Shown here: positions 9,431 through 39,032 of the stretch, in pieces | Layout of the letters: each line of letters starts with the position of its first letter | Position numbering within the stretch: position 1 is the first letter of the stretch | Assembly (NCBI GenBank): GCA_027483445.1 | Contig: JAIXUS010000005.1 | Span: forward strand, 62,001-126,000 | Reading direction: 5' to 3' | Origin: Bacteroidota bacterium | Lineage (GTDB): Bacteria; Bacteroidota; Bacteroidia; M30B66 | DNA: 64,000 nucleotides | The notes under the pieces: generated by a model | Database searches by the model: none | What the model was told of the DNA's origin: nothing | What the model saw: only the letters and a program-made list of their open reading frames with translations | Made by a program: the position numbers and the translations under genes

Positions 9431-9436
9431 GGTGTG

Positions 9437-9511
9437 TCGGGATGGCAAGATTCGAACTTGCGACCTCCTGGTCCCAAACCAGGCGCGATGACCGGACTAC
9501 GCTACATCCCG
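9437..9511 (-). tRNA. tRNA-Pro (anticodon TGG)
   Basis: Reverse strand gives a full cloverleaf: acceptor arm CGGGATG pairs with CATCCCG, the anticodon loop is TTTGGGA between CCTGG and CCAGG, and the T arm holds GTTCGAATC. The discriminator base is A and CCA is not encoded. It lies 16 nt after tRNA-Ser in the same direction and is followed by a terminator, so the two are cotranscribed. Confidence 0.95.
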
Positions 9512-9527
9512 AGCGCTTTCAATGTGG

Positions 9528-9614
9528 CGGTGAGGGCGGGATTCGAACCCGCGGTACAGTTTCCCGTACGTCAGTTTAGCAAACTGGTGGTTTCAGCCTC
9601 TCACCCACCTCACC
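9528..9614 (-). tRNA. tRNA-Ser (anticodon GCT)
   Basis: Acceptor GGTGAGG pairs with CCTCACC. The long variable arm (GTACGGG...CTGTACC region) is typical of class II tRNA-Ser. The anticodon loop is TTGCTAA, giving GCT for AGC/AGU codons, and the T arm has GGGTTCGAATCCC. Unlike the tRNA-Pro gene, CCA follows directly (9525-9527 on the reverse strand). Confidence 0.95.
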
Positions 9615-10946: not shown

Positions 10947-11100
10947 GTCACAGTATAGCCGCCCTGCCCGGCGGCTATTCCGTTCCTGCGGGCTAACCGC
11001 TGCACCCGCTTGCGCAACTTAATCGTTCACGCTAACAGGAAAAATCGTTCGAGCCTGCAAACGGAACCTTAAAGGACATCATCACAAGGCTAAACCCCAA

Positions 11101-11183
11101 AATAGGGCTCACGGAAAAGTCAGAAATGCGGCAGATGCGAGCCGCGGGCAACGAAGCAGATGCGGCATTTCTAGCTAACGAAA
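11101..11183 (+). repeat. Structured repeat R1, copy a (short form)
   Basis: Aligns to copy b 180 bp downstream but lacks about 36 bases between two GCGAG motifs, as expected from deletion between short direct repeats or from an ancestral single-hairpin form. It still folds into one hairpin with an 8-bp perfect stem, AGAAATGC (11122-11129) with GCATTTCT (11165-11172). The loop holds GCGAGCCGCGGGCAACGAAGC. It starts with TAGGGCTCACGGAAAAG. Confidence 0.8.
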
Positions 11184-11280
11184 AACTGAGCTCCATGAAT
11201 TCAAGCGTGCATGGATTTTTAAAAGCTAGACTATAAACCCTTGCATTAAGCAACATTCAAACAGGGGCTAAAGTGTTGTA

Positions 11281-11400
11281 AATAGGGCTTACTGAAAAAG
11301 TCAGAAATGCAGCAGATGCGAGGCGACTAGGCGAAGCTGTATATTGAATACTGCGAGCCGCGGGCAACGAAGCAGATGATGTATTCCTGGCTAACGAAAT
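11281..11400 (+). repeat. Structured repeat R1, copy b (two-hairpin form)
   Basis: Two hairpins: ATGCAGC (11307-11313) with GCTGTAT (11336-11342), 22-nt loop; and GAATAC (11346-11351) with GTATTC (11381-11386). Both loops carry GCGAG-S-CG followed by CGAAGC. The left end TAGGGCTTACTGAAAAA (11283-11299) is matched in inverted orientation, with one mismatch, at 11514-11530. Confidence 0.8.
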
Positions 11401-11505
11401 GTTTTAGATATTAAAAAATCATCCGCACAGATATCGAGAAAATAGGGCTCAAAACCTTGCATTTGAATGGGGGCAAACAGATGCTAAAACACTTATAACA
11501 AATTC

Positions 11506-11572
11506 ATTGAGTGTTTTTCAGTAGGCCCTAAATAAAAATATTGAGTGTTTTACAGTAAGCCCTAAAATAAAA
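11506..11572 (+). repeat. 34-bp tandem pair carrying the inverted end of R1
   Basis: Units 11506-11539 and 11540-11572 both read ATTGAGTGTTTT, then CAGTA-GCCCTA, then an A-rich tail. Each contains the reverse complement of the left end of copy b with a single mismatch, so the right end of the element looks duplicated in tandem. Confidence 0.7.
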
Positions 11573-11601
11573 GGGGAACAAGTAAGCCCTGTTCCCCTTT
11601 T
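11569..11601. terminator. Bidirectional hairpin terminator
   Basis: A 12-bp perfect stem AAAAGGGGAACA / TGTTCCCCTTTT around a 9-nt loop containing AGTAAGCCC, the same sequence as the repeat ends. There is no clear gene on either side for it to serve. Confidence 0.65.
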
Positions 11602-30620: not shown

Positions 30621-30732
30621 CTCATTAGTCAAACTACAGTAAGTGCTTCGTTTTTCGTGGCTCGTAGTTTTAAATACAGCTTCGCTTCGACGCCTCGCTT
30701 TTGCTGTATTGCTGATTTTTCAGTAAGCACTA
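30621..30732 (-). repeat. Structured repeat R1, copy c (two-hairpin form)
   Basis: Read on the reverse strand it aligns along its length to 11281-11400. The stems persist with changed bases: hairpin 1 is ATACAGC with GCTGTAT (30674-30680 and 30703-30709, 22-nt loop as in copy b), and hairpin 2 is AAACTAC with GTAGTTT (30631-30637 and 30664-30670). Loops keep GCGAGGCG with GCGAAGC, and CGAGCCACG with ACGAAGC. Confidence 0.8.
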
Positions 30733-35161: not shown

Positions 35162-35182
35162 CGCCGTTGTTCGTTGATTACA

Positions 35183-35282
35183 CTTATCCAGAAAGACCGA
35201 GGGAATAGGCCCGTTGACGTCTTGGCAACCGCTCAGTTGAGTATGGTGCCAATTCCTAATCTCCACAAGGAGAGCAGATAAG
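35183..35282 (+). promoter_or_regulatory. SAM-I (S-box) riboswitch upstream of metH
   Basis: P1 is formed by CTTATC (35183-35188) and GATAAG (35277-35282). The conserved core is present in order: AGAccGAGGGA, GGCCCGTTGACGTCTTGGCAACC, GGTGCCAATTCC, and the P4 hairpin CTCCACAAGGAG. This aptamer binds S-adenosylmethionine and normally lowers expression of methionine genes when SAM is high. No clear intrinsic terminator follows. A stretch at 35317-35328 could pair with 35178-35188 and compete with P1. Confidence 0.93.
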
Positions 35283-35354
35283 CGAAATTCAAATCCTTTA
35301 TTCTGCGGTTTTTTGTGATAAGTTGTAAGTGTTGCCGAACACGCGATTTGGTAT

Positions 35355-38300
35355 ATGACAAAACTGCAAGAGGCGCTTTCCCGCCGGATTTTGGTGCTCG
35401 ATGGAGCGATGGGAACGATGATTCAGCGACATACGCTGGAAGAGGAGGATTTTCGCAAGGGGTTTTTTGAGCAGCATCCGCATCCTCTGAAAGGAAACAA
35501 TGACTTGCTGGCCATGACCCGGCCGGAGATTATTCAAGGCATCCATGAGGCGTATTTTGAGGCTGGTGCCGATATTGCCGAAACCAATACATTCAGCGCT
35601 ACCAGCGTTGCTCAGGCCGATTATCACCTCGAACACATTGTTTATGACCTCAATGTGGCCGCCACCCGTTTGGCCAGAGCGGCCGCCGATAAATACACGG
35701 CTTTAACGCCTGATAAACCTCGTTTTGTGGCCGGTTCTATTGGGCCAACCAACCGTACGGCCAGCATTTCGCCCGATGTGAACGACCCCGGCTACCGGGC
35801 CATCACCTTCGACGAACTGGTAGACGCGTACACCGAGCAAGTGCGCGGACTGATCGACGGTGGTGCCGATATTTTGCTGGTTGAGACCATTTTCGATACG
35901 CTCAACGCCAAAGCTGCGCTGTTTGCCATTGACCAATACTGCGAGAAAATTGGTCGGAGAATGCCCGTTATGGTTTCGGGAACGATTACCGATCAAAGCG
36001 GACGAACGCTTACCGGGCAAACTGCCGAAGCCTTTTTGTACTCGGTGTCGCACATCGACTTGCTCTCGGTAGGCTTTAATTGCGCACTTGGGGCCAGGCA
36101 GCTGAAGCCTTACGTAGAAACGCTGGCGAAGAATGCAAAATTCCGCATTTCGGCACACCCCAACGCCGGATTACCCAATGCTTTTGGTCATTACGACGAA
36201 ACTCCCGAGCAGATGGGCGTACAAATCAGAGAGTACCTCGACAATAACCTGGTGAACATCATCGGCGGCTGTTGCGGAACTACGCCTGATCACATTCGCG
36301 AAATAGCCAGAATTGCGGCTGAATACACACCGCATCAAATTCCGGAACTCGAACCCTTGCCATTTTACAGCGGACTGGAGCCTGTGTTAATTCGGAAAGA
36401 GACCAATTTTGTAAATATTGGTGAGCGTACGAATGTGACCGGCAGTAAGAAGTTTGCCCGCCTGATTGTTTCTGGAAATTACGACGAAGCGCTTAGTGTG
36501 GCCCGCGATCAGGTAGATGGTGGAGCGCAGATTCTCGACGTGAACATGGACGAAGGCATGCTCGATTCGGAGGCTGCCATGGTGAAGTTTCTCAACTTGA
36601 TGGCTTCGGAGCCTGATATTGCTAAACTTCCAGTGATGATCGACTCTTCAAAATGGTCGGTGATTGAAGCCGGTTTAAAGTGTGTACAGGGAAAATCGAT
36701 TGTAAATTCGATTTCACTCAAAGAAGGCGAAGAGAAGTTTATCGAGCAAGCCAGGCTGATTAAGCGTTACGGAGCCGCTGTGGTGGTGATGGCCTTCGAT
36801 GAAGTGGGTCAGGCCGACAGCTACGAGCGACGGATTGCCATTTGCCAGCGGGCTTATACCATTCTTACCGAAAAGGTAGGGTTTCAGGCTACCGACATCA
36901 TCTTCGACCCCAATATTCTCACCGTAGCCACCGGTATTGAGGAACACAACAATTACGCAGTTGATTTTATTGAAGCTACACGTTGGATAAAGCAGAATTT
37001 GCCCGGAGTTCGGGTGAGTGGTGGGGTTTCCAATATTTCTTTTTCATTCCGTGGAAACGACCGCGTCCGTGAAGCCATGCACAGCGCGTTTTTGTACCAC
37101 GCCATCAAGGCTGGGCTCGACATGGGCATCGTGAATGCCGGCCAACTTGAGGTGTATGAAGAAATTCCGGCGGAGCTCCTTGAGAAAGTAGAAGATGTGC
37201 TGCTCAACCGCCGACCTGATGCCACCGAACGACTGGTTGAATACGCCGAAACGGTGAAGTCGGCCGGTAAGGTTCAGGAAAAAGACGAACAGTGGCGGAA
37301 ACTACCGGTGAAGGAGCGTTTAACCCATGCTCTGATTAAAGGTATTGTAGATTACATCGATGAAGATGTGGAAGAGTGCCGCCACCTTTTCTCTAAGCCT
37401 CTCGAAGTTATTGAAGGCCCATTGATGGACGGAATGAACATTGTGGGCGACCTGTTTGGAAGCGGGAAGATGTTTTTACCTCAAGTGGTGAAGTCGGCCC
37501 GTGTTATGAAAAAAGCCGTAGCCTACCTCTTGCCTTACATTGAGGCGGAGAAGAAGGCCGGTGGCAGCTCGGGCAATGGAAAAATCCTGATGGCCACAGT
37601 GAAAGGCGATGTACACGATATCGGGAAAAACATTGTGGGCGTGGTTTTAGGCTGCAACAATTACGAAGTGGTCGACATTGGCGTGATGGTGCCTTATCAG
37701 AAAATTCTCGACACTGCAAAAGAGATTGGAGCCGATATCATTGGGCTTAGCGGACTCATTACGCCTTCGCTGGATGAAATGGTTACGGTTGCCCGGGAAA
37801 TGGAAAAGCAGGGATTCAAAATTCCGCTGCTGATTGGTGGAGCAACAACTTCCAAAACCCACACTGCGGTTAAAATTGCGCCTCAATACAGTGGTCCGGT
37901 AATTCACGTTTTAGATGCTTCTCGTTCCGTTCCGGTAGCCGGCGCATTGCTAAGCAGAGAACAGCAGGGCGATTTCCGCCGTACCATCGAGGAGGACTAC
38001 AGCCGAATTCGCGAGCAACACGCCGGAAGAACCACGGCCAAAGAATACGTGTCGCTTGCCTTGGCTAGGGAAAATAAAATACCGGTGCAATTCGGCCCCG
38101 ATACCATTGTAAAGCCTAAGCAAACAGGCGTTTTTGTGTTAGACAATTACGATTTGTCTGATTTAGCGCAGTTTATTGACTGGACACCATTTTTTGCCAC
38201 CTGGGAGTTGTATGGAAAATACCCGGCCATCCTCAACGATTCGGTGGTAGGCGAGGAGGCGACCAAGGTATTTGCTGATGCCCAGAAAATGCTTCAAACG

Positions 38301-39032
38301 ATTATCGACGAAAAGTGGCTAAGGGCGAGGGCTGTATATGGCTTGTGGCCAGCCAATTCGGTGGGTGATGACATTGAGATTTACACCGATGAGTCGCGTA
38401 AAACCATTCAGCAGGTGGTACATCATCTTCGTCAACAAAATAAAAAGGCTGCCGGTCAGGCCAATTTCTGCCTCAGCGATTTTGTAGCGCCTAAAGCTTC
38501 CGGAATTGCCGATTACGTGGGTGGATTCGCAGTAACAGCCGGAATTGGAATTGAGAAATACGTTTCGGAATTCGAGGCTGCGCACGACGATTACAGTGCC
38601 ATCATGCTCAAAGCCCTGGCCGACCGATTGGCGGAAGCCTTTGCTGAGAGGCTGCACCATTTGGTTCGAACCGAATTTTGGGGGTATTCATCCGAATCGT
38701 TAACCAATCAGGAACTCATCGAAGAAAAATACCGCGGTATTCGTCCGGCACCGGGTTACCCCGCTTGTCCCGACCATACCGAAAAAGGATTGCTCTTCGA
38801 TTTGTTAAAGGCGACCGAAAATACCGGAATTACCCTCACCGAAAGCTTTGCGATGTATCCGACGGCCGCTGTAAGTGGATGGTATTTTGCGCACCCCGAA
38901 AGCAAGTATTTTGGTTTAGGTAAAATTCAGCGCGATCAGGTTGAGGAGTATGCCAAACGGAAAAACATGCCCTTTGAAGAGGCCGAGCGTTGGCTTAGTC
39001 CGGTGTTGGCCTACGAGCCTCAATCGGTCTAA
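35355..39032 (+). CDS. metH: Cobalamin-dependent methionine synthase
   Basis: A 1225-residue, four-module cytoplasmic enzyme that methylates homocysteine using 5-methyltetrahydrofolate. Module 1 (homocysteine) has zinc ligands Cys243, Cys306 and Cys307. Module 2 (folate; [14 protein letters not shown] near 357) follows. Module 3 binds cobalamin with His754 in [15 protein letters not shown]. Module 4 is the SAM-dependent reactivation domain, with [17 protein letters not shown]-type motif (here [17 protein letters not shown]) and a C-terminal part rich in aromatic residues. Length equals the E. coli enzyme (1227). Controlled by the SAM-I riboswitch in its leader. Confidence 0.98.

Follow-up and report, generated by a model that had tools for sequence, protein, structure and literature searches.

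In the genome of a Bacteroidota bacterium we investigated a stretch of 64,000 nucleotides (the window), in which an earlier note had described three related repeat copies (a, b and c). Their positions, orientations and relationship are borne out (Table 1), and the three are a small part of a family with at least 41 core copies in the genome (BLAST of the whole genome with copy b as query). Copy b turned out to be the left-half hairpin of a 244-bp miniature transposon (MITE) with inverted terminal repeats (GGGCTTACTGAAAAA / TTTTTCAGTAGGCCC), nested within copy a; when the element of copy b is excised in silico, a 208-bp copy a results, which can be aligned over its whole length with the intact relative at C46:59755, likewise a one-hairpin element. 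The stem AGAAATGC/GCATTTCT noted before in copy a is real and forms the base of a long hairpin. Copy c is a decayed member (BLAST identity 76%). No transposase gene fits into the 244 bp of copy b, and the list of open reading frames contains none of 100 aa or more there. Directly after copy a (window 11569-11601) lies a perfect 12-bp hairpin, AAAAGGGGAACA/TGTTCCCCTTTT, whose loop includes part of the MITE terminal repeat (AGTAAGCCCT); this may be another solo terminal repeat, here within a terminator-like hairpin. Near the MITE cluster, tRNA-Pro (TGG) and tRNA-Ser (GCT) are adjacent to each other (9436-9614, minus strand), and a SAM (S-box) riboswitch (35181-35284, plus strand, 77.8 bits) is found directly upstream of a 1225-aa ORF (35355-39032).

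Table 1. Features of the three repeat copies, with positions counted from the first letter of the window. R2 and R3 are covariance models; R3 was trained without Bacteroidota.
Feature	Position	Strand	Remarks
Copy a, 208-bp one-hairpin MITE, split by copy b	11105..11562	+	pieces 11105-11284 and 11529-11562, TAAATA duplicate common to both
Copy a, target-site duplication, 6/7	left 11098..11104, right 11563-11569		CAAAATA (left), TAAAATA (right)
Copy a, hairpin core, shortened	11119..11175	+	apical part missing; R3 44.7 bits, E 1.9e-10
Copy b, intact 244-bp MITE	11285..11528	+	terminal repeat, hairpin core, right internal part, terminal repeat
Copy b, target-site duplication, perfect	left 11279..11284, right 11529..11534		TAAATA
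Copy b, hairpin core	11300..11391	+	R3 65.2 bits, E 2.4e-16; covariation
Copy c, decayed hairpin core, old MITE copy	30628..30716	-	R3 14.6 bits, E 0.085; R2 18.4 bits, E 0.01

The terminal-repeat pattern GGGCYTACTGAAAA.../...TTTTCAGTARGCCC has 116 sites in the genome within one mismatch, versus 3 for the reversed pattern. Of 45 elements with both ends, collected from this genome and related ones, 15 are flanked by an exact target duplication of 6-7 bp, mostly TANNTA, and more by a duplication with one mismatch; mismatched end pairs, used as control, gave about 2.5% exact duplications. These repeats are a MITE family that moves by its terminal inverted repeats and duplicates 6-7 bp of target, in the manner of DDE transposases. 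Regarding the hairpin, 22 of the complete elements in this genome contain it in full, in six it is shortened or altered and in another six it is missing. Short direct repeats, GCAGATG and GCGAG among them, mark the ends of the deletions, and outside the hairpin most deleted copies are closest to full-hairpin copies. Some of the hairpin-less deletion copies even have perfect target duplications, two of them being 97% alike in their right halves, and the hairpin may therefore not be needed for transposition. Another arrangement is an 85-bp, almost fully palindromic miniature (G000:C13:40560-40644, L075), in which a short hairpin core is directly adjoined on either side by the terminal repeats. 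The ends of five contigs of this genome (C7, C16, C40, C43, C78 of G000) fall inside the MITE; near-identical copies thus probably interrupted the assembly, and the genome may contain more copies than counted. Solitary terminal repeats were considered as ends of autonomous insertion sequences, but those checked by eye are MITE remnants, and one short right-end match (L037) lies within an ordinary gene and is due to chance.

Folded as RNA, the common copies are most stable as one long hairpin (-36.6 kcal/mol, z -5.3 versus shuffles), which in copy b consists of an outer 12-bp stem, a tandem GA mismatch in GCAGATGC/GCAGATG, an RAGGC/AACGNN internal loop and an apical stem. Across 39 copies of its own family this hairpin shows 19 double-sided changes versus 5.6 in shuffles, and its covariation score (0.130 versus 0.096) is reached by none of 500 shuffles. 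The earlier note had instead paired the sequence into two hairpins with matched stem changes; in the same 39 copies that structure shows a single double-sided change versus 0.9 in shuffles, its covariation score is equalled or exceeded in 301 of 500 shuffles, and it was dismissed as not covarying beyond chance. The changes in its second hairpin, taken as matched between copies b and c, are not homologous, since by eye the two registers lie 3 nt apart (C64-G94 in b, C67-G94 in c). What stands of the claim is that a paired fold covaries as if selected, though not in the pairing proposed.

Similar intergenic hairpins occur in Deltaproteobacteria, and this knowledge helped to choose the pattern (GCAGATGCRAGGCG N30-60 AACGNNGCAGATG, derived from the window copies) with which a collection of species-representative genomes was scanned. 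The pattern matches at least 116 stretches in at least 10 phyla as judged by record title, where by a rough estimate almost none would be expected by chance. Carriers among the matches listed are Acidobacteria, Aminicenantes, Omnitrophota, Planctomycetota, Spirochaetales, Streptomyces, Selenomonadales, Faecalibacterium, Bacteroidales, Deltaproteobacteria (Desulfobacterales, Desulfobulbales, Desulfuromonadales), Gammaproteobacteria, Neisseria, Eikenella, Comamonas, and Verrucomicrobia with Lentisphaerae and Kiritimatiellae; some of the records are metagenome bins, and a few host assignments may be wrong. Within Bacteroidota carriers are rare (5 of 297 genomes, two of these weak). All of the 24 sampled genomes that were reached via pattern matches contain covariance-model copies, with numbers per genome ranging from 1 to 150 or more. 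Covariance model R3 matches 45 of 46 loci gathered from this genome and related ones; that it finds copies a and b (scores of all three copies in Table 1) although trained on other phyla only is independent support for a shared structure. A phage or plasmid origin was rejected: none of 2.9 million viral contigs contains the pattern, and blastn with two queries matched no plasmid record.

The long hairpin also covaries across phyla. In 33 non-redundant sequences we counted 190 double-sided cells in the stem, versus 68 +/- 6.5 in shuffles and 40-83 in slid controls; the covariation score of 0.586 is reached by none of 500 shuffles (0.167) and slid controls stay at or below 0.165, while a full-length alignment gave 182 double-sided changes versus 77 shuffled. 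The flanks pair within each locus at 7.5 of 10 Watson-Crick positions, versus 3.8 of 10 with the flanks of other loci. It should be noted that the invariant loop letters lie inside the scan pattern, so that loop invariance partly reflects the selection of hits; the stems lie outside it, and their covariation is therefore independent of how the loci were found. The stems vary but keep their pairing, while in the internal loops (tandem-GA and RAGGC/AACGNN) the letters themselves are conserved. Taken from the sequences, this suggests that the folded shape of the hairpin is under selection. One could argue for ordinary decay of insertion sequences instead: the products would be palindromic MITEs, and copying from a few active sources alone would preserve the hairpin, with no selection on the fold. 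Within one genome most copies are indeed close paralogues, and versions that have lost the hairpin are common, as slippage at the GCAGATG direct repeats would produce. We nevertheless consider such decay very unlikely, because no shuffle and no slid control reaches the level of compensatory change seen in the 33 non-redundant sequences, the Bacteroidota copies are found by a model from other phyla, and the autonomous end regions examined are without the hairpin. Nor do the repeats descend from a decayed protein-coding element, a possibility already doubted before: the stem changes are complementary across phyla (190 versus 68), unlike what coding would give. Integron attC sites were likewise rejected, as their conserved R/L boxes were not seen in alignments read by eye only.

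The kind of mispairs in the outer stem is informative about the form in which the hairpin acts: G.T occurs 45 times versus 10 times for A.C, compared to 51 and 29 in shuffles. With G.T wobbles far above A.C mismatches, one strand appears to fold as a single strand, which suggests a folded single strand, RNA or single-stranded DNA, as the selected form. Such tolerance of wobbles on one strand is what RNA would show, and together with a fold far more stable than that of shuffles and the placement of the copies (22 of 22 examined in this genome are intergenic, none between divergent genes) it lends some weight to a use for the host, as 3'-UTR element or as small regulatory RNA (mRNA stability, RNase III site, sRNA), with the MITE as the vehicle of its spread, as in NEMIS/Correia or REP. 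We regard this as unlikely, however, given that there is no orientation bias to host genes, neither in this genome (6 versus 5 co-directional cases) nor across phyla (15 versus 16, with rough gene calls), that no conserved neighbour gene was seen, and that copy number differs strongly between close relatives, one member of the genus having no match. Equal sense and antisense placement led us to reject a cis-regulatory RNA of neighbour genes in particular.

The ends between which the hairpin lies differ by group: TAGGGCTTCCTGACA in Neisseria, CTAGGGCCTGTC in Streptomyces, CCTGRATCCGTGAG in Deltaproteobacteria, TACTGAGGAGACCG in Verrucomicrobia and AGAAGCGTGTTGAA in another Bacteroidota genome. 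One hairpin module is common to MITEs with unrelated ends in at least 10 phyla. In a Neisseria genome the ends of the hairpin MITE agree in 16 of 16 nt with those of an approximately 870-bp IS5-type element (PF01609 transposase), and in Neisseria sp. MAG L239 (970-2015) both stand directly head to tail, with a CTAG junction between identical ends; the IS5-type element itself contains no hairpin. In BMS3Bbin14 a transposase fragment with a weak match to PF13701 (IS1380 family) begins just inside the shared 14-nt end, and no hairpin lies between this end and the fragment. For the GGGCYTACTGAAAAA ends of the present genome we found no transposase with matching terminal repeats in this genome, where the earlier note had proposed to look for a RAYT-type or other transposase: PF05598 and PF01609 matches (C67) were rejected as the autonomous element because their ends differ, and a RAYT/HUH mobiliser was rejected for lack of a Y1_Tnp gene (0 matches here and likewise in the element carriers G004 and G292).

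That the same core lies within ends of unrelated families and is absent from the autonomous end regions examined would also fit a hairpin which is itself mobile or recombinogenic and was inserted repeatedly into different MITEs, its conservation then reflecting the spread of the hairpin and no role for the MITE. The comparison of related genomes points the same way, the hairpin being 83-94% identical and the rest of the element 59-63%, near the 55% of shuffled sequence. Against this, no hairpin-only mobile unit with boundaries of its own was identified, this genome contains no Y1_Tnp gene, and the stems diverge with compensation, which makes the modules old and not recent copies; we hold the idea to be decidedly improbable. 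The earlier suggestion of a mobile hairpin element or RNA stands as regards a mobile element with an apparently selected fold, but this element is a MITE in which the hairpin is embedded, and not a free-standing RNA.

Among known systems, bacterial MITEs such as Correia/NEMIS, BrickBuilt of Porphyromonas gingivalis and QMITE of Coxiella are likewise short, gene-less and intergenic, and share with the present element inverted terminal repeats, target duplications and the ability to fold when single-stranded; hairpin-forming repeats inside MITEs of a single species are already known from BrickBuilt. To our knowledge, such MITEs are confined to narrow groups, whereas here one covarying hairpin core spans different ends and at least 10 phyla. 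REP/REPIN sequences with RAYT are also hairpins present in many intergenic copies, and are assumed to work as folded single strands. REPs, however, consist of a short tagged palindrome and depend on a Y1/HUH enzyme, while the present element has terminal repeats and 6-7 bp target duplications in a genome without a Y1_Tnp gene. The relation to the IS5 family is one of ends, identical in the Neisseria hairpin MITE and the IS5-type element, of which the latter lacks the hairpin; no insertion sequence with the ends of the Bacteroidota MITE was found. Intergenic multicopy palindromes, among them 'short RNA elements', have been described from Geobacter genomes, in Geobacter species and Desulfotalea (PMC2700814, PMC2996986). 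In one of these palindrome families a central GRCGTAGCGCTGCTACGCC resembles the apex of a Geothermobacter copy of the present hairpin; the main text of these papers contains neither the present structure nor its breadth, the families being compared by description only (PMC2700814, PMC2996986). The hairpin has no match in Rfam at gathering or relaxed threshold (window and a Deltaproteobacterial copy), and a text search of 5.39 million papers gave no match to the motif string, in agreement with the earlier suggestion that the family may be undescribed. New are therefore not MITEs themselves, which are known, but MITEs with one conserved, covarying core common to phyla and transposase families.

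Weighing these observations, among them the higher conservation of the hairpin compared to the rest of the element, we favour, with moderate confidence, a MITE moved by a DDE transposase whose embedded cross-phylum hairpin folds as a single strand and serves as a cis-acting aid to the element. A DDE transposase would act on the terminal repeats of the 244-bp MITE, whose insertion duplicates a target of 6-7 bp (TANNTA); the left half of the MITE forms one long imperfect hairpin, a structured module common to MITEs of different ends; the folded strand may be bound by a factor conserved across bacteria; and the bound strand would, as its most likely role, raise the amplification or persistence of whichever MITE carries the hairpin. 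Such a cis-acting aid would explain both the same module on different transposase ends and the lack of orientation bias to host genes. Going further, one may tentatively imagine an ancient RNA or single-stranded DNA module, read by a common bacterial factor and repeatedly joined to MITEs of different transposase families, which drives their spread; if true, it would be a portable amplification signal for non-autonomous transposons, working across transposase families.

MITEs are usually seen as insertion sequences that have shrunk and contain nothing of value. In the present family the interior is the most conserved part of the element, common to at least 10 phyla and to different transposase ends, and both matching autonomous ends examined, one of them belonging to a whole element, are without the hairpin. 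Absent from Rfam, this large structured family can be searched by covariance model as well as by a simple pattern. Should the fold work on behalf of the element, this would explain how some MITEs come to number 100 or more copies, and it would indicate a host partner that is widely conserved.
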